This document shows, one piece after another, positions 4,002 through 54,973 of a DNA stretch of 64,000 nt. The DNA comes from Synechococcus sp. CCY 0621 (GTDB lineage Bacteria; Cyanobacteriota; Cyanobacteriia; PCC-6307; Cyanobiaceae). The notes beneath the pieces were generated by a model. The model worked only from the letters and a program-made list of their open reading frames with translations. It ran no database searches and was not told the DNA's origin. Numbering within the stretch: the stretch's first letter is position 1; each line of letters begins with the position of its first letter. The DNA lies in assembly GCF_019038465.1 (NCBI RefSeq), contig NZ_JAFKRH010000015.1, positions 1-64,000 on the forward strand. The letters run 5' to 3'. The translations under genes and the position numbers were made by a program.

Positions 4002-4075
<74 letters not shown>

Positions 4076-4225: not shown

Positions 4226-5404
4226 ATGGCCTGCCCTCCGTGGCAACACGATCTGAGCCGCGCTTTCAAGCGGCATCGGGCGGGCCGCAGCGGCTGGTAT
4301 CTCCAGGTTCATGGCGACCGCCTGCGGCTGGTGAGCAAGGAGTTTCCCCCCCGTCCTGGCGAGCAAGCCGCCGCTGGACCGAAGCAAAGGGCGCTCACCT
4401 TGTCCACTCCGCCAGGGCCCTCTACGGCCGCCACTGCCTTGGCCGAAGCCTGCGGGGTGTTCGATGCCGTCATGGCGGCCAGCTGGTCCTGGCCTCATCC
4501 CGATGCCACACCAGCGGCGGATGACCCTGGTCACTTACAGCCCAGCCACCTCCGCCGCCTGACCCGACAACTGCGCGAGCAGTTGGTTGGGGAACAGATG
4601 CAGGCCGGCACCTGGGAGCGGACCTGGCAGCCATACCTCAACCGGATAGCCACCACGGCGGAGGAGCGCAACTGGGCCGACGATGAGTCATTCCTGGCCG
4701 CCTTTCTGCGGGGCTGGCCGCCAAACAGCCGCAGCCGGCAGATGGCCTACGACCGTGCCCGCAGGCTGTGGAAGGAGGCCGGCTGGAACTGGCCGGAGGA
4801 GTTGAACTCGCTTCGAGGGAACGGGAAGGCTGTAGCGGCAGCGGAGGGGGTGAGGAGCTTCACCGATGACGAGATTGATCAACTGCGTGTGTCCATTCAG
4901 CAGAGCCGTCTGACTGCTGCTGACGCGGTGGCCTGGGACTGCATGATCGTGTTCGGTCTCCGCCCAAAGGAGCTACAGGGTTTGGAATTAGAATGGAGAG
5001 ATGGCCAACTAGTGGCGGTCGTTTCGCGCAGCAAGCGGTCCAGCCGGGGAAGCAGTGGTGCACGCGTCGTACCAGCGGTCCCTCCCGCTGGTTGGCAATC
5101 GGACTGCCATGGATTGCTTGCACGGTGGCGGCAAGAAGGGCTTCCGCAATCCTTGCTTTCGGCTAGATCACCTGGGCAAGTCCTGACACAGCAGCTGCGC
5201 CGGTTACATCTGCCTGAGGAGCTGACTTCTTATGGCCTCCGTCATGCCTTCGCACTCCGGTTGGGCCTGGACCTTGGGTTGCACGTCAGGGAAGCAGCCG
5301 AGCTGATGGGACACTCCCCAGCAGTACACCTGTGTACCTATGGGCGGCGATTAGACGCGCCGGGACTCCTTGCAAAGGTGGCGGCAATCTTAACGGCTCG
5401 ATAG
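4226..5404 (+). CDS. int: Tyrosine-type site-specific recombinase (integrase of the tRNA-Val element)
   Basis: A 392-residue integrase. The C-terminal catalytic domain carries R246 in FGLRPKEL, YGLRHAFA at 336-343 (Tyr replaces the usual first His of HxxR), H363 in LMGHSP and the nucleophile Y372 in TYGRR. Residues ~100-200 look like the core-binding SAM-like domain, and the N-terminal ~100 residues should bind the arm sites. It sits 152 bp inside the tRNA-Val core and is transcribed away from it, as in tRNA-targeting islands. It should catalyse integration and, with the excisionase-like protein at 16346-16567, excision. Confidence 0.88.
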   Translation: MACPPWQHDLSRAFKRHRAGRSGWYLQVHGDRLRLVSKEFPPRPGEQAAAGPKQRALTLSTPPGPSTAATALAEACGVFDAVMAASWSWPHPDATPAADDPGHLQPSHLRRLTRQLREQLVGEQMQAGTWERTWQPYLNRIATTAEERNWADDESFLAAFLRGWPPNSRSRQMAYDRARRLWKEAGWNWPEELNSLRGNGKAVAAAEGVRSFTDDEIDQLRVSIQQSRLTAADAVAWDCMIVFGLRPKELQGLELEWRDGQLVAVVSRSKRSSRGSSGARVVPAVPPAGWQSDCHGLLARWRQEGLPQSLLSARSPGQVLTQQLRRLHLPEELTSYGLRHAFALRLGLDLGLHVREAAELMGHSPAVHLCTYGRRLDAPGLLAKVAAILTAR

Positions 5405-5575: not shown

Positions 5576-6010
5576 TCATGCTTTGCCGGAATTCACCATT
5601 TGGATGAATTTGGCAATTTGGGATGCGTTGTCCTGCAGAAGATTGGAGATGATTCTATGATTTTCATATGGGATATTCTGCTGTGGCGTAACTTCCCTAA
5701 TTGCCTTGGTTCCATTTTTGAGTGCATTCAACAATGGAAAGGCTACTTCACGCTGCTCTCCTTCATGCCCTAAAGTCACAGTGAGTGAGGCAATTCTATG
5801 GCTGTTTCTGCCGAAGCCAATTAGATCACTGGGATCTACCTTTAATGTCTTTGCTGGCTCATCAGAAATATATTGGAAACGCAGGGACAAGACCGAGGCT
5901 GAGGGATCAAAGCCAATAACACAGGCCTTAGGAATGTCGAATTGAGAGACACTTGTGTCTATAATTTCCTTGGAGAATTCCAAGGCAAATGGTCTTTCGG
6001 AAACTGCCAT
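5576..6010 (-). CDS. Unknown protein, second gene of the membrane GAF module
   Basis: A 144-residue protein that I do not recognise. It is soluble, with no signal peptide, cysteine motif or obvious catalytic signature. Alternating hydrophobic residues (VLSLRFQYI, IASLTVTLG) suggest a beta-rich core followed by a C-terminal helix. It starts 3 bp after the stop of the membrane GAF gene on the same strand, so the two are almost certainly cotranscribed. Base composition is clearly AT-richer than the flanking genes, which fits recent acquisition as element cargo. Confidence 0.6.
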   Translation of the reverse strand: MAVSERPFALEFSKEIIDTSVSQFDIPKACVIGFDPSASVLSLRFQYISDEPAKTLKVDPSDLIGFGRNSHRIASLTVTLGHEGEQREVAFPLLNALKNGTKAIREVTPQQNIPYENHRIISNLLQDNASQIAKFIQMVNSGKA

Positions 6011-6013
6011 GGC

Positions 6014-6865
6014 TTAGATTGTCCCTAGGATTGGTGAAATAGCAGAAATAAATACACGAAACGCATGTTTGTATGCATTATTCTTGGGAATGACAGTATT
6101 GGTACTGTCTAGAATTAAGACTCCCCATCGCTTCCCGTTTAGCTCTATGCTGATAGCCGCATATGCCTTCGCATTATAGTTCATTTCTATTGCCTTGTCT
6201 ACAGGGACCCTTACGAGATTGAAATAGTCTTGCTTCTCTTTGTCTGTCATGGTGGGATGAGGTGTTGGCACGTCTTTGATCTCCACCCATCGTCCATTCA
6301 TGCACCATGCCTGTCCAACCACACCCTCCATATCGTTCGGGTGGTCAGAAAATCTAAAGATGCTCCGGGTATTCTTGGTTACGGTTCCAGACCTTGCTAT
6401 GGGGACGAAATATTTGTGCCATGGCGGCTTGAGCATTGCGACACAGCCATATTGAACACGGTATATGGTTGCCCTGTGCTGATACTCAAAGTCGTTCTGA
6501 TGATCACGAGAGCTGTATACGGCTCTTGCGAACTCATCTAGGCATGACTGAATTGCCACCCATTTCCATGGAGTTGACGATCTTGCAAGTGCTTCAAGTA
6601 GTGGCAGAACTGTGCTAAGAATTGGAAGAACGACAGGCTGCCAAGGATTGGCCCAATTCGCCAGATCTGCAAGGAATGTGCCATGAGAAGCATTGCTAAT
6701 GAAGGGGATGGGGAGTGCCGAGGATCCATTTACGGCACCTAATAGGCCTGCACATGCGATATAGATCAATATAACAACCTGCAGCAATCGCGTGAACAGC
6801 CACCATTTTCTGCTGCCCGTGCGGTCGAGAGATACGTGGAGTTTGCCAATAATTGAACTAGGCAT
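6014..6865 (-). CDS. Membrane protein with C-terminal GAF-like sensor domain
   Basis: A 283-residue protein. It has two hydrophobic segments (about 23-46 and 72-93), then a helical linker and a GAF-like domain from ~130. The latter has the blocks GVVGQAWCMNGRW and ISIELNGKRWGVLILDSTN, typical of GAF strands and of the closing WGVLxLDS element. GAF domains bind small ligands or serve as dimeric sensors, but here no enzymatic output domain is attached. It is the first gene of a two-gene operon (3 bp to the next gene). The AT-rich composition and the position just inside an integrative element make it cargo, possibly defence or signalling. Its function is unknown. Confidence 0.6.
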   Translation of the reverse strand: MPSSIIGKLHVSLDRTGSRKWWLFTRLLQVVILIYIACAGLLGAVNGSSALPIPFISNASHGTFLADLANWANPWQPVVLPILSTVLPLLEALARSSTPWKWVAIQSCLDEFARAVYSSRDHQNDFEYQHRATIYRVQYGCVAMLKPPWHKYFVPIARSGTVTKNTRSIFRFSDHPNDMEGVVGQAWCMNGRWVEIKDVPTPHPTMTDKEKQDYFNLVRVPVDKAIEMNYNAKAYAAISIELNGKRWGVLILDSTNTVIPKNNAYKHAFRVFISAISPILGTI

Positions 6866-7429: not shown

Positions 7430-7996
7430 TCAGCCGCCGATTGCAGCCAGCACCTCGGCATCAGTGGCGCTCAGGTATTCACCGAGAGATCCTAGCGACT
7501 TGTGGCCGGTGAGCTTCTGGACGACGTGCAACGGCACCCCTCGGCCCACGGCAGATTGAGCCAGCGACCGGCGGAAAGAATGGGTGCTCACCCCCTGGAG
7601 ACCTAAGCGGGCGCAGGTGGCGCGAAGGGCCTTATCGGCAGCCTGCCGGGTCTGCGGTGTCGTTGTCGATCCGGCCGCCGGGAACAGGGCCTCGGTCGAC
7701 GCCGGGGGGTGACCATGCTCAGCCTCCCAGGCGGTGCGGTAGACGGCTAGGGCCTCCCGCAGGGCATGGACGATGGGAACTTGCCGGGTGGTCTTCGTTT
7801 TCGTGGAGGCCCGGCGGAAAGTCACCACGCCGTTGATGTCGGCCCAGGTGAGGGCGAGGGCCTCGGAGATGCGGGCGGCGGTCCAGCGCTGAATTGCCCA
7901 GAGGCAGGCGTAGCGGGGCGAGGGCGCAGCGGCCTGCAGAGCGTCGAGCTGGTCTTCGGTGAGGGCAGCGGCCTTGCCGTGGCGATCGTTCTTCAT
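7430..7996 (-). CDS. Minimal tyrosine recombinase (catalytic domain only)
   Basis: A 188-residue protein that is almost entirely the catalytic domain of the tyrosine recombinase family. R42 lies in ARISEAL, a Lys in the beta hairpin TKTKTTR, HSFR at 139-142, H165 in LTGHKS and the nucleophile Y174 in GEYL. It lacks the ~100-residue core-binding domain of normal integrases. Such short forms exist in mobile elements and act on dif-like or inverted sites. A perfect 11-bp inverted repeat lies 13 bp upstream of its start. It is a second recombinase in addition to the 392-residue integrase, so it may resolve or invert DNA rather than integrate the element. Confidence 0.8.
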   Translation of the reverse strand: MKNDRHGKAAALTEDQLDALQAAAPSPRYACLWAIQRWTAARISEALALTWADINGVVTFRRASTKTKTTRQVPIVHALREALAVYRTAWEAEHGHPPASTEALFPAAGSTTTPQTRQAADKALRATCARLGLQGVSTHSFRRSLAQSAVGRGVPLHVVQKLTGHKSLGSLGEYLSATDAEVLAAIGG

Positions 7997-9300: not shown

Positions 9301-9813
9301 TTACTCCTGACCCTCGTCCTCCACGGCAGCCAGCGCCAGGCCCTGCGCCCTGACGCGGAGCATGATCCGCTCCCGCTGCTCAGTTCGCAGGCTGGGCTCA
9401 GCCTCCAAGGCGGCCACGAACATGCCGACCACCTTCGCCACCTCCCTTCGAGCGTGGCTGGCCTCGCTCCAGTTGTCGCGCCAGCGGGGCGAATGACTCA
9501 GGAGCCAGGTTGCAGCGCGGGTGTCGCCCTTTTCGGCCATCTTGTGCAGTTGCTGCAGCAGCCGTTCCTCACCCTCAACCCGGCCACGTTGGATAGCGGC
9601 GGCTAGGGCGGCCTCCAGCTCGCTGGCGTCGGGCCTAAGACCAGCGGCGATCCATTCCCGCAGTGTGCAGCGGTTGACGCCTAGGGCCTGAGCGATGGAA
9701 AGCATTGGGAGGCCCAGGACGGTGAGTTCTCCCGCCCGTTTGACCCTTTCAACGGTGAGCTTCCTGCGGGGGGCTCCCCCTGATTGCTGAAGCAAATTGC
9801 AGTCAGTGGTCAT
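9301..9813 (-). CDS. Helix-turn-helix protein resembling phage terminase small subunit
   Basis: A 170-residue protein. The N-terminal HTH at ~25-60 (GLPMLSIAQALGVNRCTLRE) is followed by the layout seen in small terminase subunits: ELEAALAAAIQRGRVEGEE, LLQQLHKMAEKGDTRAATWL and LSHSPRWRDNW. Small terminases recognise the packaging site and feed DNA to the large ATPase subunit, which is not present here. In phage satellites a private small terminase redirects packaging of a helper phage. It starts 4 bp after the stop of the MuF-like gene, so they share a transcript. Family assignment is by pattern only; a generic HTH regulator remains possible. Confidence 0.55.
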   Translation of the reverse strand: MTTDCNLLQQSGGAPRRKLTVERVKRAGELTVLGLPMLSIAQALGVNRCTLREWIAAGLRPDASELEAALAAAIQRGRVEGEERLLQQLHKMAEKGDTRAATWLLSHSPRWRDNWSEASHARREVAKVVGMFVAALEAEPSLRTEQRERIMLRVRAQGLALAAVEDEGQE

Positions 9814-9817
9814 GGAT

Positions 9818-11020
9818 TTACCTGGGCTTCTTGGCAAGTTTCTTCTGGTATCGGGATATTCGTTTCGCCCAGTCTCCGCTCCAGCCAGCCTGAGCTACGT
9901 TCTCGCAGACTGCTATCGCATCAGAGTGACGGCCTTGCTTGTCGTAGATAATTGCCAATTGCTGAAAGGCCTTGACCAAAAACCCCTCAGTTTGCATTTC
10001 TGGAATGTATTGGTAACAATTCTCGGCCCATCCTGCAGGCCGCCCAGAAATCATCTTTGAGTAGTGGCGAAAAGAGGACTCGCAGCGAGAGTAAATCTCC
10101 TCAAGGATGGCCAGTGCGGCATCCAAGTTCTCTTTCTCGTCCCTTTTGGCGTAATGGTTCATCGCCTCTTCGTAAAGCCTGACATGCGTGGAGAGGTGGG
10201 CCAGGCTTTTGGTGTCACCGTCTCTAGCCCCGAACATATCAATCCACTCACTTACAGCGCTAGCAAAATCTATTTTCTGGACAGGCTTCCCTGAAGTTGG
10301 ACGGCCAAGCAGCCGATCTCCAATATCTTCACCAAAAATAGTGCGAGCAGTGCGAGGGTTCTTCAGGATCCACTCTCCACCTGTAACACTTAATGGGAGA
10401 CTCTTCTCCCCTCGGTCCCCGACAACAATCCTCTCCCCACCACGATCTCTCCACTGTTTAGGCATCATATAGCATCTACAATTCCATATCGGATCGATTT
10501 TCTTGTGTCCATCCCAATATGGGCCCGGCTTTCCGCGCTTGTATTGTTGCCCGTCTAGCCCTAGGCAGATTGGACGCGTTTCGGAGTCCAATGTAGCTGT
10601 CCATATCAGATCACCATCAGACCAAGCAGGGTCTGATTCAAGTGCACGAACAGCTCTTCCATACAGACTCTCCTCGTCAACGTCACTGCCTCCAATTTCA
10701 AGAGAAACTTGATTCTCCCCTGCTGGGGGATTAAGTCGAGACAGGAGACGGCTGAAAAGGCCTGGTTTGCGAGGCGCTGAGAGGGCATCATTTGACCTAT
10801 TCGCATTTCTCGACTGAGCGGAAGCCAGCTCCACCTCGCGCCTGAGATTCTTCAGGGGGATCCTATCAATAAGCTTGCCATCTACGGCGACGATGACAAA
10901 GGTTTCCGCAGTCAAGCGAGACTTGCTCTTGTCAACGTCAGACCTTGCATTTAGCTTCCCCTTTCTTAAGGCATATCTGATAGCCGCCTCAAAAAGATCT
11001 TCATCACTTTCGGCATTCAT
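9818..11020 (-). CDS. Protein with phage head-morphogenesis (MuF / SPP1 gp7-like) motif and TPR-like C-terminus
   Basis: A 400-residue protein. Residues ~138-188 carry the hallmark of the Mu F / SPP1 gp7 minor head family: WTATLDSETRPICLGLDG, a spacer, then PIWNCRCYMMP. The N-terminal ~70 residues form a small charged domain. The last ~130 residues are helical with a TPR-like unit (AFQQLAIIYDKQGRHSDAIA). In phages these proteins sit at the portal and enter the head, and MuF domains also occur fused to toxins. Here it stands without portal or capsid genes, but next to a terminase-small-like gene 4 bp downstream. It may be a packaged effector or a capsid-interference protein of a satellite; this is inference. 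Confidence 0.6.
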   Translation of the reverse strand: MNAESDEDLFEAAIRYALRKGKLNARSDVDKSKSRLTAETFVIVAVDGKLIDRIPLKNLRREVELASAQSRNANRSNDALSAPRKPGLFSRLLSRLNPPAGENQVSLEIGGSDVDEESLYGRAVRALESDPAWSDGDLIWTATLDSETRPICLGLDGQQYKRGKPGPYWDGHKKIDPIWNCRCYMMPKQWRDRGGERIVVGDRGEKSLPLSVTGGEWILKNPRTARTIFGEDIGDRLLGRPTSGKPVQKIDFASAVSEWIDMFGARDGDTKSLAHLSTHVRLYEEAMNHYAKRDEKENLDAALAILEEIYSRCESSFRHYSKMISGRPAGWAENCYQYIPEMQTEGFLVKAFQQLAIIYDKQGRHSDAIAVCENVAQAGWSGDWAKRISRYQKKLAKKPR

Positions 11021-11148: not shown

Positions 11149-11826
11149 TCAGCGCAGCCGCTCGCAGGCTTCGCCGTCACTGTCTCCATCGAGGTACGTG
11201 TGCCCCTCCCGCAGCAGCTGCTGGGCCCGCTCCCAGGAGCCGACATTTGCGCAATACCACCGCCGCCCTGGACTGGATGCGGGAGCTGTCCTGTCGTTAA
11301 TGATCGTCAGCGTCACCGGGCGCTGGGACGGCTGGCGTGGAGCGCCTCGGTTGGCGTCTCTCCAATCCCAAGGACGCTGGATCCCGCCGTCGAATCTCCA
11401 GACCCCTACGCGGTATCGCTGAGCCAGCCTCTCCCGATCGAGATAAGCCCATTCGTCGCACTGCTTCAGGTACTGGCGATAAGCAAAAGCATGGCCCTGC
11501 TGTACCAGCGCGAGGCCCGCATTGGTCCCGTTCTGGGTGAACACCTCAGCGACGGTCCTCCCATACCGATCCTTGGTCTGGGCTTTCAGCGTCACCGTGG
11601 AACCGACCGGAAGCAACTCCTGGAGCGCTTGCCTTGCCTGCTGCCCGTAGGGAGCCTGCGCCATCTCCGGGGCATCAATGCAGGCCACCCGGATTGTGAT
11701 GTTCTTCCCACGATCCTCGACCCGCAGGGTATCGCCATCGCCCACTGAGATCACCGTGGCGGCATCAACGGCGAGGGGGCTGAGCAGCGGGAGGGCCAGC
11801 AGGCTGGCAATTGGTGCGAGCCGCAT
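11149..11826 (-). CDS. Secreted thermonuclease-like nuclease with excalibur domain
   Basis: A 225-residue protein. A signal peptide (~1-22, ending VDAA) precedes a staphylococcal-nuclease fold: VISVGDGDTLRV, IRVACIDAPE (catalytic Arg and metal Asp) and TKDRYGRTVAEV (second catalytic Arg). A C-terminal excalibur-type calcium-binding motif follows, DGDSDGEACERL, with YCANVGSWERA before it. It would hydrolyse DNA or RNA in the periplasm or outside the cell. Carriage on an integrative element suggests a role in nutrient scavenging or in destroying competing DNA. It may share a transcript with the 57-residue gene ending 25 bp upstream. Confidence 0.85.
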   Translation of the reverse strand: MRLAPIASLLALPLLSPLAVDAATVISVGDGDTLRVEDRGKNITIRVACIDAPEMAQAPYGQQARQALQELLPVGSTVTLKAQTKDRYGRTVAEVFTQNGTNAGLALVQQGHAFAYRQYLKQCDEWAYLDRERLAQRYRVGVWRFDGGIQRPWDWRDANRGAPRQPSQRPVTLTIINDRTAPASSPGRRWYCANVGSWERAQQLLREGHTYLDGDSDGEACERLR

Positions 11827-14026: not shown

Positions 14027-15301
14027 TCAGGCAGCTACATGGCGCTCGCCGCCTGGCGTGAGGGTGTACCCGTTTCCCTTTGATCGGATCAGCCGCTCCT
14101 GCCGGAGCCGTTTCAGCGAGCTGTAGATGCTCTGCCCCGTCTTGTTGGTGGCCTCGATCAATGCCGCCGGCTTGGTGGGAAGGCCAGCCGTACTGAGCCG
14201 CTGTATCAGCGCCAGCAGTTCGTCATCCACGTTTTCGTGGTAGTGCCCTTCCGCCAGCTGAAACTCACCGCTGCGCCAGTGGTAGGCGAACTCCCGGCGC
14301 GACTCACCACGGAGTTTCTCCACGATCCAGCGGTAAGGCTGATCGGTGCCTTTCTTCGGTGGTTCGATCCGATGGATCACGGAGGGCACCTCCTGCCAGG
14401 CAGGGTGGCCGCCGATGGACTTCAGACCCGTGCCGGATCGGTTGCTGTGCGTGTTGATCCACAGCACGGCATGGCGGCAAACGATCGCCTTCAGGAGCCG
14501 TAGGTACTGATCCACAGGCCCCACGTAGGGGCTTAGACCCGCCTGCTGAAAGACCGCGTTAGCAGTGTCGATGAACACTGCCAGCACGTCACCCTGCGCC
14601 ACCCTTAGGGCGAGTCGGTGAAGGTTGGGGAGCGTGATGCTCCAGCCCGCTTCGCTGCCGTCCTCCGCTTCGGCCCAGACCTCGATCAGCGCGCCACGGT
14701 CTGCAACCTGCAGTTCGTCGCAGTAGTCGCTGATCTGGTTGTAGGCAGTGGGGCCGCCATCTGTGGCGATGTAGAGGATCGTGCGCCGGCTGCCGCCACC
14801 TTTGCGGGGCGACTGGTGATCCATGAAACCGGCGGTGCCTAGGGACAGGATCGTGGCCAGCTCCAGCGTGAGCAGGGTCTTACCGGCGCCGGCATCGGCC
14901 ACCAGGAGGTGCAGGTCACGGTCCAGGACAAACCCTGGCTGTAGCTGCTGGATCCCTGCGCCGGGGTCTGCCTTGCCGATGATCCGGCCGCGGGCAGGCG
15001 GTGCCTGGCTGGATAGGTCGATGCCTTGGCTTTCAGCCCATCGCCGGAGCAGCTCTGCCTCGATCCGCTCACGGCTGACACCTTGCCGATAGATGCGGGC
15101 GAGGATCACATCCACGCGGCTGTGCTCCTGGGCGATGGTGGCCTCTAGGAGCTGGCGATAGTGCCAGTCAATGTCCTGTGCCTCGTTGGCGATAGCAACG
15201 GCCGGATCTTTTGCACTGGGGTGCTGCAGCACGTTGCCCGCCGCCTTCTCATCGAGGGCCGCCAGCCCCGCCTCGATGTCTCTGCGGTTCAAGCGGGTCA
15301 T
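14027..15301 (-). CDS. RepA-like AAA ATPase (RecA-fold, plasmid/phage replication family)
   Basis: A 424-residue protein. A RecA-type NTPase domain has Walker A DAGAGKT near residues 136-142. It is followed by ILYIATDGG, VLAVFIDTAN (Walker B strand) and VLWINTHSNRSG. This matches the AAA_25/RepA helicase-like family found in plasmids, phages and satellites. The C-terminal ~80 residues form a winged helix (KPAALIEATNKTGQSIYSSL). It should load at or unwind the element origin after excision. It is the last gene of a four-gene operon; its ATG overlaps the previous stop by 4 bp (15298-15301). Confidence 0.8.
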   Translation of the reverse strand: MTRLNRRDIEAGLAALDEKAAGNVLQHPSAKDPAVAIANEAQDIDWHYRQLLEATIAQEHSRVDVILARIYRQGVSRERIEAELLRRWAESQGIDLSSQAPPARGRIIGKADPGAGIQQLQPGFVLDRDLHLLVADAGAGKTLLTLELATILSLGTAGFMDHQSPRKGGGSRRTILYIATDGGPTAYNQISDYCDELQVADRGALIEVWAEAEDGSEAGWSITLPNLHRLALRVAQGDVLAVFIDTANAVFQQAGLSPYVGPVDQYLRLLKAIVCRHAVLWINTHSNRSGTGLKSIGGHPAWQEVPSVIHRIEPPKKGTDQPYRWIVEKLRGESRREFAYHWRSGEFQLAEGHYHENVDDELLALIQRLSTAGLPTKPAALIEATNKTGQSIYSSLKRLRQERLIRSKGNGYTLTPGGERHVAA

Positions 15302-16020
15302 GGCCGCGCCACCTGCTCACGGTGCAGCCCATGCAGCGCCAGCACGATCAGATCCCGTGGCTGGTATGGCCCCAGGTCCGGCGGTGGCAGCTCCGGCTCC
15401 TCCTCAGGCAGCACCGGCGACTCCGACCGGTACGTTGCCAGCCGGTAGTCCCAACTGGTGGCCCAGCGGTCAGCGTCCTCTGCCTGATACCGCAGCTCGC
15501 GGTGCTGCAGTCCCAGCAGGTCCAGCAGCCGCCTCAGGGCCACGTCATTGCCTGCGATGGCCGCCAGCCGGGGGAGCAGCTTCGTGGTCTCCTCCACGGC
15601 CAGCTGGATCAGCTGATGCACCTCCCGGAACTGGTCATCCCTGAGGTGCTCGAAGGGCTCGACCGCCAGGGCCTCGGCGATCAACGGCGTCAGTAACCGG
15701 AGCTTCCCGGCGACGATCTCGGCCTCTGACCGCTCCAGCTTCCGCCGTGCGGCCCCTGGCAGGTGCTGCCGTTCCTGATGCGGTCGCAGCACCGTGCTGT
15801 TGCCGCCGAACCCGCCCCGGACGCTGACCACGGCCCAGGGCTGCCCCTCGACTGTGACCACCTCCCCAACTCTCAGATCAGGCGGGTGAAACGACGAACC
15901 GTGCCAGCAGGAGATCCATCCGGGTCCTCGCCGGCATTTGTCATCAGTGACGCGGCCGCACAATTTGCACGGACTACCCCTTCCGCTGGAGGACAAGCGG
16001 GATGCGTTAGTGGCCACCAT
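15298..16020 (-). CDS. Zinc-finger replication-associated protein
   Basis: A 240-residue protein. Near residues 18-39 it has a Cys/His cluster (CKLCGRVTDDKCRR, then ISCWHG) like the zinc finger of phage primases. An SH3-like strand region (VGEVVTVEGQPWAVVSVRGG) and long helices follow. It lacks primase catalytic motifs. It sits between a ribbon-helix-helix regulator and the RepA-like ATPase with 1-bp and 4-bp overlaps, so it is probably a partner in replication initiation. Confidence 0.65.
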   Translation of the reverse strand: MVATNASRLSSSGRGSPCKLCGRVTDDKCRRGPGWISCWHGSSFHPPDLRVGEVVTVEGQPWAVVSVRGGFGGNSTVLRPHQERQHLPGAARRKLERSEAEIVAGKLRLLTPLIAEALAVEPFEHLRDDQFREVHQLIQLAVEETTKLLPRLAAIAGNDVALRRLLDLLGLQHRELRYQAEDADRWATSWDYRLATYRSESPVLPEEEPELPPPDLGPYQPRDLIVLALHGLHREQVARP

Positions 16021-16346
16021 CAGCGCTGCCCTCGGCCAACCTTGTCCTTGAGGAGTGCTCGCAGGCCGTAGACCATCGCCAGCCGCATGAGAGCGGATCG
16101 ACTCGCTCCCAGCTCTTCTGCAACTGCAGAAATCTGCTCCAGCTCCTCCGTGGTGAGCCGCACTGTTATGGGCCGGCCAAGTCCACGCGGCAGTAGATCA
16201 AGCGGCGAAAACATTTGTCTGCGGGCCGTACTCGCTAGCTTGCCGACGAACGGAGAGCTGGCATCAGCGCCGTTGTACACAGGCCCGGACGGCCGCAAGG
16301 ATGAAGCGTGGCTGGGAGTTCCAGCGGCTTGAGTTGATGCCTTCAT
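16020..16346 (-). CDS. Ribbon-helix-helix DNA-binding protein
   Basis: A 108-residue protein starting MKASTQAAG. The C-terminal ~50 residues read PITVRLTTEELEQISAVAEE followed by LGASRSALMRLAMVYGLRAL, the strand-helix-helix of MetJ/Arc-type (RHH) regulators. The first 55 residues are disordered. Its ATG overlaps the stop of the excisionase-like gene by one base and its stop overlaps the next ATG. It probably autoregulates the replication operon. Confidence 0.7.
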   Translation of the reverse strand: MKASTQAAGTPSHASSLRPSGPVYNGADASSPFVGKLASTARRQMFSPLDLLPRGLGRPITVRLTTEELEQISAVAEELGASRSALMRLAMVYGLRALLKDKVGRGQR

Positions 16347-16567
16347 CAGCTCACACCCATGCGTTTGGTGCGCACTTTCAGTGCGTCCTGCACAGAGGCC
16401 GGATCCCATCGGAGCCTCGGCCGAATGGAACCCGTGCCCACGGCGACAAAGTGCTTGCCAGGGCGAAAGAAACCCTCAGCTCGAAGCCGCTGAAGAGTCT
16501 TTGTACTGACCCGCAGAAGACCTGCGAGCTCTGCTGTAGACGAAGAAAACTGAAGTTGGATCTCCAC
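16346..16567 (-). CDS. Excisionase-like winged-helix protein
   Basis: A 73-residue protein with a MerR/AlpA-type helix-turn-helix (STAELAGLLRVSTKTLQRLR). A wing follows, with GKHFVAVGTGSIRPRLRWDP and the final helix. Such proteins act as recombination directionality factors or operon activators in integrative elements. It is the first gene of the leftward operon xis-rhh-znf-rep, near the right-hand att site. Confidence 0.7.
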   Translation of the reverse strand: MEIQLQFSSSTAELAGLLRVSTKTLQRLRAEGFFRPGKHFVAVGTGSIRPRLRWDPASVQDALKVRTKRMGVS

Positions 16568-16835
16568 GGGAACTAATTGCCCGCCGAAGCGAGCGATCCC
16601 CCGCGTGGGGCAGCGACTGGAGTCAGGTGGCTGTCATACGGGGCTTTAACCCGTGCCGCGTGCGTACCCCGTAGGGCATTGGCGCTCCATGAAAGACCGT
16701 AGAGACCCCTTGACAAGACGTCAAGAGCCAAGATCGGACAGAGAGGCCGCGAGGATGCAGTTTTACCGCAGCTTTACCAGGCGACTGATCGGTCAGCCAT
16801 AAATGACTGCAGCACAAGCAGTTTCAGCAGCAGAT
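16568..16835. other. Right-end control region with two arm-type sites
   Basis: This stretch has no gene. It should hold the promoter of the leftward operon. It contains TTTACCGCAG at 16762-16771 and TTTACCAGG at 16773-16781, matching the three sites at 4112-4211. An inverted stretch, TTGACAAGACGTCAAG, lies near 16720. Confidence 0.5.
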
Positions 16836-16885
16836 GCCTGCCTTACAAGCAGGATGTCGCTGGTTCGAAACCGGCATCGGGCATC
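16836..16885 (+). repeat. attR core: 50-bp copy of the tRNA-Val 3' part
   Basis: Identical over 50 bases to 4026-4075. It marks the right end of a ~12.8-kb element. The acceptor 5' arm and D arm are missing, so this is not a tRNA gene. Confidence 0.9.
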
Positions 16886-16898
16886 GGGGGAGGGGGCG

Positions 16899-17129
16899 AT
16901 GGCCCAACGATCCCGCCGAAAGATGGTCATCGAGATGACCATCTCCTTGCGACAGGACACGGTGGCGGAGGCCAAAGCCCAGCTGTCGAGCCTGCTCGAC
17001 GCGATGGCGCAAGGCCAGGCGGTGGTCATCCCCCAACGCGGCAAAGCCATCGCTGAGCTGGTTCCCCGGCATGCCGTGAGCGATCTCCTACCCCAGCTCC
17101 AGGCTCTGCGGGTTGACGTCAGCTCCTGA
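16899..17129 (+). CDS. Phd/YefM-type antitoxin
   Basis: A 76-residue protein. The core TISLRQDTVAEAKAQLSSLL, with VVIPQRGKAIAELVP after it, is the Phd/YefM DNA-binding fold that represses its own operon. The C-terminal tail (LLPQLQALRVDVSS) would wrap the toxin. It starts 14 bp after the second att copy, with GGAGG shortly upstream, and its TGA overlaps the toxin ATG (TGATG). The partner toxin is broken. A decayed copy of its 3' end lies at 20329. Confidence 0.7.
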   Translation: MAQRSRRKMVIEMTISLRQDTVAEAKAQLSSLLDAMAQGQAVVIPQRGKAIAELVPRHAVSDLLPQLQALRVDVSS

Positions 17130-17528
17130 TGCTGTCTGTCGACACCGGCGTGCTGCTGGCGGCCCTAACACCGGAGGCCCACTCCGGCGCCGGGGCAATC
17201 AGCCCCTGGAGTGCCACCGAGCTCCATTCCGCTCTCGGTCTCAAAGTGCGCACCAAGGCCCTGAGCCCGTCGCAGGCCGAAGCGGTGCTGCAGGTCTTTG
17301 AACGCAGCCTGAGCCCGGGTTTTCTGATGCAGGAGGTGGAACTCCAGGACTTCCTTCCGTAATGCCAAAGTCTGTCTGCGCGTCTGGACAACGGCCCTGT
17401 GGGCGGCCGCTGCGCTGCACCTGGCGATCGCCTCCGGATGGGAAGCCACCCTTGGCAGCCTGGATGCGCCGTTTGTGAAGGCAGCCCGGCAACTGGGGCT
17501 CGAGGCCCAGCTGATCGGGGCTGACTGA
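17129..17528 (+). pseudogene. VapC-type PIN-domain toxin, disrupted
   Basis: The N-terminal PIN start is present (MLSVDTGVLLAALTPEAHSG with the first acidic Asp), then SPWSATELHSALGLKVRT. A duplicated TTCC at about 17353 shifts the frame and gives a stop at 17362. The remaining C-terminus (AALHLAIASGWEATLGSLD) continues in another frame to TGA at 17528. About ten residues of the usual region after the first helix are also missing. The related copy at 20520 has the unduplicated TTCC. VapC toxins are Mg-dependent RNases; this one should be inactive. Confidence 0.7.
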
Positions 17529-17641
17529 CGCGCGACTGGCGGATGGCCAGGACCATGGGGATCGGCAGGCTTGTTAAAGGAAATGCCGGTTCGCTTGAAT
17601 TACGCTGACGCTTATTCAAGGTTGGGCCTCCACCAAAGGAG

Positions 17642-18802
17642 ATGAAACGGGAAGCCACAGGGCACTACGACATAACCAGCACCGCCGGAGAGACCGTCAG
17701 AGCCTTCGTGCCGGAGCCTCTGCCACCCCATCCCCCGCTCGACTTGGTCGGGCTGGGGCAGGCCCTGAAGGATCGCGCCCTCCTGGCCTGTGGGCGCCTC
17801 GATGGCGTGTCGGCCCTGCTTCCTGATCCAGACCTGTTTCTATACGCCTACGTCCGTCGGGAGGCCCTGCTCTCGTCCCAGATCGAGGGAACCCAGTCGT
17901 CTCTGTCAGACCTGCTGTTGTTCGAGCTTGAAGAGGCTCCTGGGGTTCCCTTTGACGATGTCGTTGAGGTATCGAGCTACGTAGCGGCCCTCGAACACGG
18001 CCTGGCCCGGATGGCCAGTGGTTTCCCCCTCTCCTCCCGCTTGCTGAGGGAAATCCACGAAGTGCTGTTGGCCCGTGGGCGTGGTGCCGATCGAATGCCG
18101 GGCCAGTTCCGGCGCAGCCAGAACTGGATCGGCGGCACCCGGCCGGGCAATGCCCGCTTTGTGCCACCACCTCCTGGGCTGGTGGAGGGCTGTATGGCCG
18201 AGCTGGAGCGGTTCATCCATGCCGACGACGATCTGCACGTACTGGTGAAGGCCGCCCTCGCCCACGTGCAGTTCGAGACGATCCACCCATTCCTGGATGG
18301 CAATGGCCGCCTAGGACGACTGCTGATCGTGCTGATGCTGGTGGATGGAGGCATCCTGCGCCAGCCCCTGCTTTATCTCAGCCTGTTTTTCAAACAGCAC
18401 CGCAGCCGCTACTACGAACTCCTCGATGAGGTGCGCCAGCAGGGTGACTGGGAGGCGTGGATAGCGTTCTTTCTGGAGGGTGTGGAGAGCACCGCTGCTG
18501 CCGCTGTGGACTCGGCCCACCGCTTGCTGGACCTGTTCCGGAGCGACGAGATGAAGCTCACAGGATTGGGCCGATCGGGCACCAGCCTGAGGCAGGTCTA
18601 CGCGTCGCTCAGGCAACGGCCCTTGATAGGAATTCCCCAGCTCGCGGCCAGGGCGCAGGTGAGCTTCCCCACCGCAGCCAAGGCCATGGAGCGCTTGGTG
18701 GCTCTGGGAATCGCCAGAGAAGTCACCGGAGGCCGGCGCAACCGGGTATTTGCCTACGACGCCTACCTCGCCATCCTGGGTGAAGGGGCTGAACCGCTCT
18801 GA
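17642..18802 (+). CDS. Fic family protein (putative AMP transferase)
   Basis: A 386-residue protein with the complete Fic motif HPFLDGNGRLGR at 215-226 (catalytic His215). It has a class II style N-terminal inhibitory helix, SSQIEGTQ (Ser79, Glu82), and a C-terminal winged helix (IPQLAARAQVSFPTAAKAME) typical of this widespread form. Fic proteins transfer AMP or other nucleotide parts to target hydroxyls, and the Glu of the inhibitory helix blocks ATP positioning. AAAGGAG lies just before the ATG. It sits between two att copies behind a broken toxin-antitoxin pair, so it may act as a stabilising or defence cargo. Confidence 0.88.
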   Translation: MKREATGHYDITSTAGETVRAFVPEPLPPHPPLDLVGLGQALKDRALLACGRLDGVSALLPDPDLFLYAYVRREALLSSQIEGTQSSLSDLLLFELEEAPGVPFDDVVEVSSYVAALEHGLARMASGFPLSSRLLREIHEVLLARGRGADRMPGQFRRSQNWIGGTRPGNARFVPPPPGLVEGCMAELERFIHADDDLHVLVKAALAHVQFETIHPFLDGNGRLGRLLIVLMLVDGGILRQPLLYLSLFFKQHRSRYYELLDEVRQQGDWEAWIAFFLEGVESTAAAAVDSAHRLLDLFRSDEMKLTGLGRSGTSLRQVYASLRQRPLIGIPQLAARAQVSFPTAAKAMERLVALGIAREVTGGRRNRVFAYDAYLAILGEGAEPL

Positions 18803-18914
18803 GTGAAAGACGGGATGTTCCCCCAACCACGGACATCGGGGCAATTCTGCGCATGATTGTGCGCACCGATTCGTAGTAATGGCCCAAATGCCTTGCCGCA
18901 TCAGGAATTGCTAT

Positions 18915-18962
18915 CTGCCTTAGAAGCAGGATGTCGCTGGTTCGAAACCGGCATCGGGCATC
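18915..18962 (+). repeat. Third att-like copy of the tRNA-Val 3' part
   Basis: Matches the tRNA 3' core from the anticodon stem onwards, with a single change (TTACAA to TTAGAA). It continues TCGGGG as in the second copy. It delimits a 2.1-kb segment (phd, broken vapC, fic) behind the main element, the trace of an earlier integration or a tandem insertion. Confidence 0.8.
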
Positions 18963-19041
18963 GGGGCAGAACCACGCCAGGCAGGGCGATTGAGGCCGTC
19001 CCGCGCAACATGGAGGCGGCTGGGGCCGATCAGATCGCCGT

Positions 19042-50749: not shown

Positions 50750-52063
50750 ATGTCGAATCTTTCCCGTCGTCAATTTCTGATCACCGCCGCCGGCACCACG
50801 GCCGGAGCCATCTGGCTGAGTGCCTGTGGCAGCAAGCCATCCAGCACCAGTTCGGCCCCTGCCGCCTCCGACGCCGGCGGCGACACTGAGGTGAAGGGTG
50901 CCACCCTTGGCTTCATCGCCCTGACGGATGCCTCACCCCTGATCATCGCCAAGGAAAAGGGCTTCTTTGCCAAGCACGGCATGCCCGATGTGAAGGTCAT
51001 CAAGCAGACCTCCTGGGCCGCCACCCGCGACAACCTGGAACTAGGCGCCGAACGCGGTGGCATCGATGGGGCTCACATTCTCACCCCAATGCCCTATCTG
51101 CTCACGGCAGGGACGATCACCAAGAGCTCCCAGCCATTGCCGATGTACATCCTGGCGCGGCTCAATGTGAATGGTCAGGGACTTTCCCTCTCCAATGAAT
51201 TTCTCAAGGAGAAAGTCACCATCAGCGATCCCAAGATCAAGGCGATCGCTGATCGCAAGAAAGCCGGCGGCAAGCTGCTCAAAGCAGCCGTGACGTTCCC
51301 TGGGGGCACCCACGACCTCTGGATGCGTTATTGGCTGTCCGCCAACGGCGTCGACCCCAACACCGAAGCCGACTTGGTGGTGGTACCTCCGGCCCAGATG
51401 ATCGCCAACCTGCAGACGGGCACCATGGACACCTTCTGCGTGGGAGAACCCTGGAATCAGCGGGCTGTCAACAAGAAGATCGGCTACACCGGCGCCATCA
51501 CGGGCGAGCTCTGGAAGGATCATCCCGAGAAAGCCTTCTCGATCCGCGCCGACTGGGCAGACAAGAACCCAAAGGCCACCATGGCCATGTTGAAGGCCGT
51601 GCAGGAAGCCCAGATCTGGTGCCAAGACCCGGCCAACCTGGATGAACTCTGTGAGATCACCTCAAAGGATAAATACTTCAAAACAAGTGTCGAAGACATC
51701 AAACCACGCCTGGCCGGCACCTTTGACTACGGAGATGGTCGCAGCGTTACCGATTCGCCACTGCGGATGCACTTCTGGCAGGACACCAACTCCCACTCTT
51801 TCCCCTACAAGAGCCATGATCTCTGGTTCCTCACAGAAGATATCCGCTGGGGTTACCTACCACAAAACACTGATACCAAAGCGCTGATCGACAAGGTCAA
51901 CCGATCGGATCTCTGGAAAGAAGCCGCCAAGGCCATCGGTCAGGAAAAAGCCATTCCCGCCAGCGACTCACGCGGCAAGGAAACCTTCTTCGATGGAGTT
52001 GTTTTCGACCCCGAGGATCCCAAGGCCTATCTCGCCAGCCTGAAGATCAAAGCGCTGAAGTAA
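50750..52063 (+). CDS. nrtA: Nitrate/nitrite-binding lipoprotein NrtA
   Basis: A 437-residue lipoprotein. A twin-Arg-like start (SRRQFLITAAG) and lipobox LSAC, with acylated C26, place it on the outer face of the inner membrane. The binding domain shows TLGFIALTDASPLIIAKEKG, FPGGTHDLWMRYWLSANGV and GTMDTFCVGEPWN, as in NrtA/CmpA. It captures nitrate and nitrite for NrtBCD. The leader carries a palindrome 34 bp upstream. Confidence 0.95.
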   Translation: MSNLSRRQFLITAAGTTAGAIWLSACGSKPSSTSSAPAASDAGGDTEVKGATLGFIALTDASPLIIAKEKGFFAKHGMPDVKVIKQTSWAATRDNLELGAERGGIDGAHILTPMPYLLTAGTITKSSQPLPMYILARLNVNGQGLSLSNEFLKEKVTISDPKIKAIADRKKAGGKLLKAAVTFPGGTHDLWMRYWLSANGVDPNTEADLVVVPPAQMIANLQTGTMDTFCVGEPWNQRAVNKKIGYTGAITGELWKDHPEKAFSIRADWADKNPKATMAMLKAVQEAQIWCQDPANLDELCEITSKDKYFKTSVEDIKPRLAGTFDYGDGRSVTDSPLRMHFWQDTNSHSFPYKSHDLWFLTEDIRWGYLPQNTDTKALIDKVNRSDLWKEAAKAIGQEKAIPASDSRGKETFFDGVVFDPEDPKAYLASLKIKALK

Positions 52064-52106
52064 GCCTACATTCCACTTTGTTCACTTTCAGACCTAGCCT
52101 TTCATC

Positions 52107-52940
52107 ATGAGTGTTGCAACGTCCAGAGGCCTACAGGCCCGCAAGGCTCCCTGGGCACCATTGGCCAAAAGGGCCACTCCCTACATCGTTTGTGTGGGCG
52201 GTTTTCTGATTGCCTGGCAGATTCTCTCGGTCATCCTCGGTGAAGCCCGGCTTCCCGGCCCGATTAACGTGGTCGTGCAGACATGGGACCCTTACATCAG
52301 CCAGCCGTTCTACGACGACGGCGGGACCAGCAAGGGACTGGGCTGGCAGATTCTGATCTCTCTACAGCGTGTGGCAATTGGCTACAGCCTCTCTGCCGTC
52401 GTAGGCATCGCGATCGGTGGGATGCTCGGCATGAGTCGTTTCATTGGCACGGGCTTTGATCCCGTGGTTCAAGTGCTGCGGACGGTTCCACCCCTGGCCT
52501 GGTTCCCCATTTCTTTGATGGTCTTTCAGGATGCCAATACCTCCGCCGTTTTTGTGATTTTCATCACAGCCATCTGGCCCATCATTATCAACACAGCCGT
52601 TGGCATACGCGAGATTCCGCAAGATTACACCAACGTTGCCCGTGTATTGAAATTGCGCAAAGGTGCTTACATCAGAGAGATTGTCATTCCCGCCACAGTC
52701 CCCTACGTCTTTACCGGTCTGCGCATTGCCGTAGGTCTGGCATGGCTGGCCATCGTTGCCGCCGAGATGCTCAAGGCTGATGGGGGGATTGGCTACTTTA
52801 TCTGGGATGCCTACAACGCTGGTGGAGATTCCAGCTCCAGCCAGATCGTTCTTGCCATTATCTATGTAGGCATCGTTGGCCTGCTCCTCGATCGCCTTGT
52901 AGCCTTCGCCGGGCGCAAGTTCAGCAAAGGAGCCGCCTGA
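52107..52940 (+). CDS. nrtB: Nitrate ABC transporter permease NrtB
   Basis: A 277-residue permease with about six spans. The EAA motif region is YTNVARVLKLRKGAYIREIV with PATVPYVFTGLRI, and LRTVPPLAWFPISLMVF is typical of the SsuC/TauC/NrtB group. It forms the channel with NrtC and NrtD. It starts 43 bp after nrtA and ends 2 bp before nrtC. Confidence 0.95.
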   Translation: MSVATSRGLQARKAPWAPLAKRATPYIVCVGGFLIAWQILSVILGEARLPGPINVVVQTWDPYISQPFYDDGGTSKGLGWQILISLQRVAIGYSLSAVVGIAIGGMLGMSRFIGTGFDPVVQVLRTVPPLAWFPISLMVFQDANTSAVFVIFITAIWPIIINTAVGIREIPQDYTNVARVLKLRKGAYIREIVIPATVPYVFTGLRIAVGLAWLAIVAAEMLKADGGIGYFIWDAYNAGGDSSSSQIVLAIIYVGIVGLLLDRLVAFAGRKFSKGAA

Positions 52941-52942
52941 GC

Positions 52943-54940
52943 ATGGCCTCCCTGTTCACCGTTGACCACGTCACCCAGACCTTTAAACTGCCTGGCGGCG
53001 GGGCCTATGTAGCCCTCCGAGATATTTTTCTCACTATTGCCGAAGGCGAGTTCATCTCGCTCGTCGGCCACTCTGGCTGCGGGAAATCCACACTCCTCAA
53101 CCTTCTCGCAGGTCTCACCAGTGCCACCCAGGGTGGCATTCTGATGAACGGCAGAGAAGTCACCGATCCAGGCCCCGATCGGATGGTGGTTTTCCAGAAT
53201 TACTCCCTGCTGCCATGGCTCACGGTTCGAGAGAACATAGCCCTTGGCGTGGACAACGTGATCGCCTCCAAGGATCGTCGGGAACGGGACTCGATCATTG
53301 AGCACCACATCCAGTTGGTGGGGCTGAAGGCCGCCGCCGATAAGTATCCCAGGGAAATCTCAGGAGGGATGAAACAACGGGTCGCCATCGCCCGTGCCCT
53401 GGCCCTGAGGCCGAAGCTCCTGCTGCTTGATGAGCCCTTTGGAGCGCTCGACGCCCTGACAAGGGGCAATCTTCAGGAACAGCTGATGCAGATCTGCCAG
53501 GAGGCGAAGGTCACCTCCTTGATGGTCACCCACGACGTGGACGAAGCTTTGCTGCTCTCCGACCGGGTGGTGCTGATGACCAATGGGCCCGAAGCCCACA
53601 TCGATCAGATCATCGAGGTGCCCCTGCCCCGGCCCCGCACCCAGCTGAATGTGGTGGAGCATCCCCGCTACTACGCCCTGCGCGCGGAGATCGTGGGATT
53701 CCTGTCGGAACAGCGCCGGGCCAGGCAGACGCGCCTCAAGCCCGCGGATCCCATCGCCAGCAACGGCCTGGAGAAGGTGAATCTGGAGCTCGGCTTCATC
53801 CCTCTCACCGACTGCCTCCCCCTGGTGGTGGCCCAGGAGATGGGGTTCTTCGCCAGGCATGGCCTGAGCCAGGTGCGCCTGCGGCGCGAAAGCAACTGGA
53901 AAACCCTGGAGACCCACGTCCGCCAGAACGTTCTCGATGGGGCCCTGATGGTGGCCGGGATGCCCATCGCCATGACCCTCGGCTTCAACGACCAGGAGCC
54001 CCTGCCGATGGTGAGTGCCCTCACCTTGAGCTGCAACGGCAATGCCATCACCCTGCACCGCCGTTTTCACGAGGCCGGGGTGACCACCCTGGCCGAGTTC
54101 AAAGACTGGATCGACGCCCACCCGAACACCAAGCCGGTGCTCGCCATGGTGCATCCGGCCTCCATGCACAATTTGATCCTGCGCGCCTGGCTGGCCTCGG
54201 CGGGGATCCATCCCGAACGCGACGTGGAGCTGCTGGTGATCCCACCGCCCCAGATGGTGGCCGCCCTGAAGGCGGGCACCATTGATGGCTACTGCGTCGG
54301 CGAACCCTGGAACTCCCGCGCCGTGCTGGAAGGCCTCGGCACGGTGATCGCCACCGATGTGGAGCTCTGGAATGGCCATTGCGAGAAGGTGCTGGGGGTG
54401 AGAGAGGCCTGGGCGGCCGCCTACCCCCGCACCCACCAGGCCCTGGTGCAGGCGCTGCTGGAGGCCTGCCGCTACTGCGACGACCCGGCCCACCGCGACG
54501 AACTGGCCGAGCTGCTGTCCCAGAGCCAGTACGTGGGCACCGATGTGGCGACGATCCGGCCGGGTCTCATCGATGCCTACGACCGCGGCACCGGCGCACC
54601 CACGGTCATGCCGTCGTTCAACCGCTTCTTCGGCCCCGAGGTCAACGAACCCAACCCGGCTGATGCGGTCTGGATCCTGAGCCAGCTTGGGCGCTGGGGC
54701 CTGACCAGCTTCCCCAGCAACTGGCAGGAGGTGGCTGATCGGGTGCAGGACCGCGCCCTGTTCCGCAGCGCCGCCGCCGCCCTGGGGTTGCCGACCACAG
54801 CGCAGCCCCCCTCACCGGTTGCGGCCTTCAACGGTGATCGCCTCGACCCGGTCGATCCCCTGGGTTACCTCGACCTCTTGGCCGTCAAGGGCCAGGTGAC
54901 GGTGGCCCCGGCGCCACTGTCCGCACCGGCCAGCCGCTGA
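52943..54940 (+). CDS. nrtC: Nitrate ABC transporter ATPase with NrtA-like regulatory domain NrtC
   Basis: A 665-residue two-domain protein. The ATPase (~1-255) has Walker A GHSGCGKS, signature SGGMKQRVAIARAL and Walker B LLLLDEPFGALD. The C-terminal half (~278-655) resembles NrtA (LGFIPLTDCLPLVVAQEMGF, then GTIDGYCVGEPWN) and acts as the regulatory domain that senses nitrogen status in NrtC/CmpC proteins. The length matches cyanobacterial NrtC. Confidence 0.96.
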   Translation: MASLFTVDHVTQTFKLPGGGAYVALRDIFLTIAEGEFISLVGHSGCGKSTLLNLLAGLTSATQGGILMNGREVTDPGPDRMVVFQNYSLLPWLTVRENIALGVDNVIASKDRRERDSIIEHHIQLVGLKAAADKYPREISGGMKQRVAIARALALRPKLLLLDEPFGALDALTRGNLQEQLMQICQEAKVTSLMVTHDVDEALLLSDRVVLMTNGPEAHIDQIIEVPLPRPRTQLNVVEHPRYYALRAEIVGFLSEQRRARQTRLKPADPIASNGLEKVNLELGFIPLTDCLPLVVAQEMGFFARHGLSQVRLRRESNWKTLETHVRQNVLDGALMVAGMPIAMTLGFNDQEPLPMVSALTLSCNGNAITLHRRFHEAGVTTLAEFKDWIDAHPNTKPVLAMVHPASMHNLILRAWLASAGIHPERDVELLVIPPPQMVAALKAGTIDGYCVGEPWNSRAVLEGLGTVIATDVELWNGHCEKVLGVREAWAAAYPRTHQALVQALLEACRYCDDPAHRDELAELLSQSQYVGTDVATIRPGLIDAYDRGTGAPTVMPSFNRFFGPEVNEPNPADAVWILSQLGRWGLTSFPSNWQEVADRVQDRALFRSAAAALGLPTTAQPPSPVAAFNGDRLDPVDPLGYLDLLAVKGQVTVAPAPLSAPASR

Positions 54941-54973
54941 CAGCCCCTCGCTTCCCCTTCCCCCTTCGCCTGC

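Follow-up and report, generated by a model that had tools for sequence, protein, structure and literature searches.

The window analysed here, a stretch of 64,000 nucleotides from Synechococcus sp. CCY 0621, contains a 12.8-kb integrative element at a tRNA-Val gene (anticodon tac; 4002..4073, plus strand). The element resembles a phage satellite and carries two genes, A and B, as cargo. It is bounded by a perfect 50-bp repeat, with a left copy at 4026..4075 (plus) that includes the 3' part of the tRNA and a right copy at 16836..16885 (plus). In the relatives G999 and G1425 the site is empty, such that the left flank adjoins the near right flank with one copy of the repeat between them; the near right flank is matched in pieces out to 742 bases in G999 and over 277 bases in G1425. 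A tyrosine integrase lies at 4226..5404 on the plus strand (Pfam Phage_integrase E 1.6e-4, below the Pfam cut-off; no match among solved structures). Beyond the pair, on the minus strand, are a second, short tyrosine recombinase of 188 aa (7430..7996; Pfam Phage_integrase E 1.1e-23), a terminase-small-subunit-like protein that is possibly a prophage remnant (9301..9837; phrog_309 E 1.2e-8), a protein combining a head-morphogenesis-like segment with TPR repeats (9818..11020; phrog_241 E 1e-5, with Pfam Phage_Mu_F at E 0.0013 and TPR_7 at E 4e-4, both below cut-off), an AAA_25 ATPase that we guess to be of replication type (14027..15301; Pfam E 3.4e-8), and a ribbon-helix-helix regulator (16020..16409; Pfam RHH_1 E 8e-5). 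A thermonuclease (SNase) gene is located at 11149-11826.

Protein A (6014..6865, minus; 283 aa) is composed of predicted membrane helices followed by a C-terminal GAF domain, as identified from its relatives and an AlphaFold model. Protein B (5576..6010, minus; 144 aa), known from its family alignment, has a predicted beta-rich first half and helical second half. B follows A after 3 nt and is separated from the integrase end at 5404 by 172 bp. GC content falls from 0.73 in the left flank and 0.60 in the element to 0.46 in the pair; at 16 of 17 loci measured the pair is lower in GC than its flanks. The first-pass annotation had described two open reading frames of foreign composition forming cargo next to the integrase, and both frames, the compositional contrast and the placement are borne out; that both recur in the same order in unrelated bacteria establishes them as real genes.

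In each of the seven relatives whose tRNA-Val regions were fetched, the repeat occurs again 5-12 kb from the first copy at the same tRNA-Val, and in four of these the element encodes an integrase 58-86% identical to that of the window. Neither A nor B was found in any of the seven elements at E 1e-5, and the pair therefore looks like swappable cargo beside the integrase. The features by which an integrated satellite is recognised – integrase, tRNA target, att repeats and an empty site – are all present, and the terminase-small-subunit-like gene suggests that the element may be a phage satellite.

Several other features of this region and its relatives are of note. The tRNA-Val is an integration hotspot in the genus, with a second repeat copy about 5-12 kb away in G979, G1073, G1063, G1099, G1422, G1116 and G1052, and about 45 kb away in G270; cargo differs among the elements fetched. 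A third near-perfect tRNA-Val repeat is present in the window at 18915-18962, and a second small insertion, with a Phd-like ORF (16803-17129) and a Fic-like ORF (17642-18802; both by eye), may thus lie in tandem behind the first, in the region 16836-18969. A stretch of about 60 residues close to the N-terminus of the head-morphogenesis/TPR protein is found again, with 40-50% identity, at a similar place early in otherwise unrelated-looking ORFs of two relatives' elements (L075 2383-2919 and L077 4666-5298), which suggests a swapped N-terminal module. The SNase is 87% identical to one in a relative's tRNA-Val element (L076 10767-11393), and an SNase gene is also found upstream of the pair in prophage L014 (8068-8742; by eye). 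The 188-residue recombinase (7430-7996) comprises little beyond the catalytic domain, and a 43% identical counterpart is encoded in the relative L074. Elsewhere in the window, a cluster of nitrate-transporter and nitrate-reductase genes is seen by eye at 50750-58614.

The first predicted membrane helix of A spans residues 17-45 (6731..6817, minus; AlphaFold with low pLDDT, overlapping a hydropathy segment at 21-51), and the second, residues 73-95 (6581..6649, minus; AlphaFold). They are joined to the GAF domain by a linker, residues 98-129 (6479..6574, minus), modelled by AlphaFold as two helices, 98-117 and 120-129. Under a strict hydropathy cut at least one segment is found in 15 of 17 family members; the window copy has one N-terminal segment, its second helix falling below the cut, and two separate segments are resolved in only three of the 17 (L006, L008 and L034). 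The two-span topology proposed in the first-pass annotation thus agrees with the model, and because hydropathy separates two segments so rarely we grade it as likely rather than proved. Among the 16 members whose start is intact, 15 have an N-terminal tail of net positive charge, and the inter-helix loop has a net charge of +1 or lower in all 17, a pattern suggesting that the N-terminus and the GAF domain are cytosolic; positive charge in the stretch after the second helix is not clear.

The GAF domain itself occupies residues 130-283 (6017..6478, minus) and is identified by Pfam, Foldseek, VIA and the family alignment. The window copy matches Pfam GAF (PF01590) with E 0.044, below the Pfam cut-off, and all nine A members scanned match the same family at E up to 1, the best at 1.7e-6. 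The AlphaFold model (mean pLDDT 69) matches GAF structures with Foldseek E 2e-5, and VIA aligns it with 4mn7 (Z 13.1, rmsd 2.9 over 136 residues) and 1ykd (Z 14.0, rmsd 6.6 over 164 residues). Fold and profile together place A in the GAF superfamily, as had been proposed from the window sequence. Its structural neighbours include the nitrate-binding NreA, free methionine sulfoxide reductases, phytochromes and cyclic-nucleotide GAFs. Fourteen positions (L109, R131, T133, R158, S159, F170, E180, P200, Y214, W247, G248, D253, S254 and L280) are invariant in an alignment of 16 members that excludes L047, L082 and L083; by eye, E180 is absent from A of L082 and L083. GAF domains that bind cyclic nucleotides carry an NKFDE motif, which is missing at the homologous place from all 17 A proteins, the NK being replaced by D-S in every one; a loose whole-protein scan finds the motif in one of 17 (L009), at a non-homologous position. 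A was consequently rejected as a cyclic-nucleotide-binding GAF protein of this kind. We note that the shortest intact A proteins are the Nitrospinae copies, with 226-228 aa (L006 9770-10456 and L048 472-1152).

B belongs to an unnamed family. It has a motif S22-x4-P27 (5930..5947, minus; family consensus SPxDVP), and S22, P27, Y47 and G67 are conserved in 16 of 16 aligned members and F45 and E51 in 15 of 16. The AlphaFold model is of low confidence (pLDDT 65) and with it Foldseek returned no match under E 0.001; the best VIA match is 4cwc (Z 5.1, rmsd 3.8 over 97 residues), with all others at Z 3.1 or lower. RexA is not among these fold matches, an absence that, given the low confidence of the model, excludes nothing. 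A profile of B finds no solved structure better than E 0.26, and searches of Pfam, PHROGs, PADLOC and NCBIfam yield isolated weak matches only. Membership of either protein in a named PADLOC, NCBIfam or PHROGs family, and for B also in a Pfam family, was rejected, since the matches are weak and all but one are restricted to a single member. Two candidate identities for B were dismissed as chance: PDDEXK_9, matched by two of nine B proteins with a best E of 0.13, and PADLOC MTase_I, matched by one of nine at E 5.6e-4, the best single match. The nine B proteins scanned match 12 Pfam families at E up to 1, and DUF4747 is not one of them. The mCpol-type synthases have a GGDD-like motif, and none of 17 B proteins contains one.

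Relatives of A were recovered by tblastn and profile searches from Pseudomonas phage LPPA36, two Vibrio plasmids, an Aliivibrio contig and seven IMG/VR contigs, and further from Phycisphaera and Nitrospinae MAGs and other genomes. At each of the 19 loci to which A led (the window, L002-L009, L013, L014, L030-L034, L048, L082 and L083), which span the host of the window, Phycisphaera-type, Nitrospinae and Vibrionaceae genomes, a plasmid, and phages, B is the next gene after A; L014 is near-identical to L013 by eye, and A of L031 is cut at a contig edge. The second Vibrio plasmid, whose A is 99.6% identical to the query from the first, stands outside this count. The window proteins share only about 15-27% identity with their counterparts in unrelated bacteria, and the gene order is the same. 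At 17 measured loci the distance between A and B ranges from -20 to +29 nt, with the genes overlapping in nine. Pairwise distances among A proteins correlate with those among B proteins (16 pairs, L013 left out; r 0.848, with none of 2000 label permutations as high), and since common descent alone can produce such a correlation this reflects co-inheritance, not contact. It had been proposed in advance that the idea of a functional pair should be given up if the two genes failed to occur together, and no such failure was found.

A reverse search with a B profile of 242 genomes of the Phycisphaera phylum matched six: four already known to carry A, a 20th locus (L047) in which the end of an A-like GAF protein is recognised by eye immediately ahead of B, and G1260. 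The G1260 locus (L046) has B without A, the single such case; the best match of two A queries across a 20-kb stretch at L046 has E 0.38, and G1260 has no match in the A profile search of the Phycisphaera phylum. A without B was never found.

The pair is rare. A is present in 1 of 292 genomes of the host phylum (single-protein query), 3 of 300 of the host family (profile) and 2 of 42 of the host genus, in 1 of 369 genomes of the class of Aliivibrio and 1 of 247 of its family, and in 2 of 18 genomes of the Nitrospinae phylum, while matches were found in 7 of 246 genomes of the phylum of Phycisphaera, four of which were accepted; some genomes are counted in more than one of these sets, and every set contains the genome that prompted it. 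The three not accepted (G1376, G1258 and G1194) were dropped as presumed other GAF proteins, with E values of 4e-4 to 8e-4 over 44-45 profile positions within frames of 622-664 residues. A DNA-level search of E. coli genomes with the L007 pair found none, and viral scans with single A, A7 and A13 as queries likewise found none.

The genomic neighbourhoods of the pair are varied. Eight loci are carried by phages (LPPA36 and seven IMG/VR contigs), all from phage-only or virus-only collections, so that carriage by phages is demonstrated, not enrichment in them. In prophage L007 the stop codon of a CI-type repressor gene (phrog_4, E 6e-42) is followed after 2 nt by the start of A, and in prophage L008 a single ORF intervenes between a CI-type repressor gene (phrog_4, E 1.7e-47) and the A-B pair behind it; a repressor-linked position is seen at only these two of the eight phage loci. 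Small regulators lie upstream of the pair at L009, L013 and L014 (in the last two by eye), separated from it by ORFs, and at L009 a tail gene is located beyond B (phrog_52, E 4e-156). In LPPA36, where the surrounding genes are on the plus strand, an AT-rich minus-strand block is made up of the pair (GC 0.43 versus 0.59) and one ORF upstream of it, and a tail gene is found in one flank. On the plasmid L003 the pair lies between a recombinase and a Tn3 transposase, with a Fic gene near. At L030, HsdM- and Methylase_S-type genes are one ORF from the pair and an MNT/HEPN pair is about 6 kb away; L005 has a transposase-like gene adjoining, L031 a RelE-like/HTH pair near, and L082 a DNA-methyltransferase-like ORF after the pair (all three by eye). 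No conserved third gene was seen beside the pair. The ORF next after B in L030 (15117-15761) has by eye His-Gly and Cys motifs resembling those of a caspase-type protease and no Pfam match at E up to 0.1.

The first-pass annotation had reasoned that homologues found mainly in core, non-mobile contexts would speak against a role as defence or competition cargo. Among the 11 loci outside the phage and plasmid collections the evidence is divided: four (the window, L005, L030 and L031) have a mobile or defence-type neighbour, at four (L006, L048, L033 and L034) none was seen, and three (L004, L032 and L047) were placed in neither group. By eye, the pair at L033 lies behind a bL27-like gene and at L034 near ribosomal genes. 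The two Nitrospinae MAGs, L006 and L048, have the gene after B in common, and this branch of the pair thus looks vertically kept.

What might such a pair do? The reading we prefer, to which we give about an even chance, is that A and B form a mobile phage-exclusion or abortive-infection module in which B restrains A, infection relieves the restraint, and A disturbs the membrane. A would be an inner-membrane protein whose N-terminus and GAF domain face the cytosol. B, probably a product of coupled translation, would bind A, most likely on the GAF side, and while bound would keep A quiet. Infection would either change a small ligand or remove or alter B; the GAF domain would read that change and the linker helices would relay it to the membrane helices; these would then assemble, disturb the membrane and stop the invading phage. 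In favour of this reading we count the constant A-B order with its short or overlapping spacing, the correlated distances, the mobile element at a site where relatives have other cargo, the positions near repressors, small regulators and phage tail genes, the methylase, specificity and MNT/HEPN genes in the neighbourhood of the L030 copy, and the methyltransferase-like ORF at L082. That A is never found alone and B once is (at L046) fits a role for B as a brake on A, an argument that depends on one locus. What the data show is that the pair is conserved in order and co-inherited, that A has a GAF fold, that the window copy belongs to a mobile element and that two prophages place the pair close to a repressor gene; the anti-phage purpose, the contact between A and B, the restraint by B and the membrane disruption are inferred. 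Counting against this reading are the four chromosomal loci with neither a mobile nor a defence neighbour and the rarity of the pair (for example, 3 of 300 family genomes), which is also typical of niche cargo. So do the separation of two helices by hydropathy in only 3 of 17 members, the lack of clear positive charge after the second helix, and the loss by eye of the otherwise invariant E180 in L082 and L083.

Of the other explanations, that A and B are chance neighbours or spurious ORFs has almost nothing to commend it; the window copy of A reaches Pfam GAF only at E 0.044 by itself, but a pair whose order is kept at 19 of 19 A-found loci in distant bacteria refutes this reading. A two-gene toxin-antitoxin or element-stabilising pair, with A as membrane toxin and B as protein antitoxin making the carrier hard to lose, is unlikely on balance, even though much of the same evidence would suit it: the tight two-gene order with overlap in 9 of 17, the occurrence of B alone but never of A, the presence of the pair on a plasmid, a satellite-like element and prophages, and the MNT/HEPN pair some 6 kb from the L030 copy. 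A whole GAF domain with an invariant set of polar residues would, however, be superfluous in a simple membrane toxin. Toxin-antitoxin pairs can also act in phage defence, and this explanation therefore overlaps with the exclusion or abortive-infection reading.

GAF domains are classic sensors of small ligands, and A could accordingly sense a metabolite, a nitrogen oxide or light, with B carrying the signal, as cargo for niche adaptation. The structural neighbours listed above for the domain and the chromosomal copies without mobile marks are consistent with such a role; but A has no output domain, no conserved third gene was seen beside the pair, and the pair is also found in a Pseudomonas phage and beside a CI-type repressor, and we consider a stress or small-molecule sensor rather improbable. 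Regulation of the lifestyle of the prophage or element, in which A and B would tune lysogeny or induction according to the state of the cell and take no part in defence, is suggested by the proximity of a CI-type repressor in L007, where A comes straight after it, and in L008, where one ORF intervenes; since chromosomes and a plasmid carry the pair with no phage repressor seen beside it, we regard this as very unlikely.

Returning to the exclusion or abortive-infection reading, the membrane components of known anti-phage systems are regarded, according to PMC9122126, as effectors that cause the cell to kill itself. The first-pass annotation knew of no named defence system with this pair, and none was found in PADLOC 2.0.0 (2023) or in the open-access literature, where searches on GAF domains combined with anti-phage, prophage or superinfection, two-gene and CBASS terms yielded no paper on the pair; the term GAF is missing from the main texts of PMC9122126 and PMC9519451. 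The pair may thus be an undescribed anti-phage system. A bolder and doubtful version is that it represents a new kind of defence that kills through the membrane: the two-helix effector would carry GAF where others have their nucleotide-sensing domain, B would be a resident brake, and loss of B or of a ligand during infection would open the membrane, the whole being a moron spread by temperate phages, satellites and plasmids across several phyla. If the pair does protect against phages, GAF would join the beta-barrel, CARF and SAVED domains as sensors known or predicted to control two-helix membrane effectors, B would be a newly named family that none of the libraries used convincingly recognises, and the cargo of a cyanobacterial element would be tied to a module of a Pseudomonas phage and a Vibrio plasmid, testable in easy laboratory hosts. 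If it does not, there is still a conserved orphan pair with a testable question as to its GAF ligand.

Several known systems bear comparison with the pair and its element. No CBASS or Pycsar cyclase was recognised among the neighbour genes scanned or in PADLOC searches for A and B, and the GAF domains of cyclic-nucleotide cyclases and phosphodiesterases (such as 1ykd) share the fold with A but not the NK of NKFDE. B is not an mCpol-type synthase of the kind found in Panoptes, with no GGDD-like motif in 17 proteins and no convincing Pfam family in nine. The element resembles P4-like satellites and the P2/P4 defence hotspots (PMC9122126) in its tRNA-targeting integrase, att repeats, putative terminase-small-like gene and cargo beside the integrase. 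It differs in that no helper phage is known for it, and in host and element family. The same four features are found in PICIs, to which the window element has the same likeness.

The pair itself resembles RexAB and its relatives, RexABpp of P. putida (PMC12894663) and gp30/gp31 of mycobacteriophage Sbash (PMC6426596), in that a soluble and a membrane protein form a two-gene unit carried by prophages. Lambda rexAB lies just downstream of cI, and A-B is similarly placed at two of the eight phage loci only, following a CI-type repressor gene by 2 nt in L007 and with a single ORF intervening in L008. RexB-type proteins have four predicted membrane helices, whereas A has about two and a GAF domain; RexA-type proteins bind DNA or contain DUF4747, whereas the B proteins scanned have no DUF4747 match; and the gene order differs, the membrane protein being encoded first in the A-B pair. 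Neither a soluble RexA/DUF4747 partner nor a four-helix RexB-type partner is therefore present. Panoptes OptSE and Cap15/S-2TM-beta (PMC12657218) likewise have a two-gene operon, and their membrane protein links two helices to a soluble domain that binds a ligand. In Panoptes-type operons that domain is a beta-barrel, CARF or SAVED; the soluble domain of A is a GAF domain, not a beta-barrel. Because the defining parts of RexAB and Panoptes are absent, membership in either was rejected and the pair is filed under neither. By analogy, these two systems, in which a partner gene controls a membrane protein, may nevertheless offer the closest working models for how A and B could act together.
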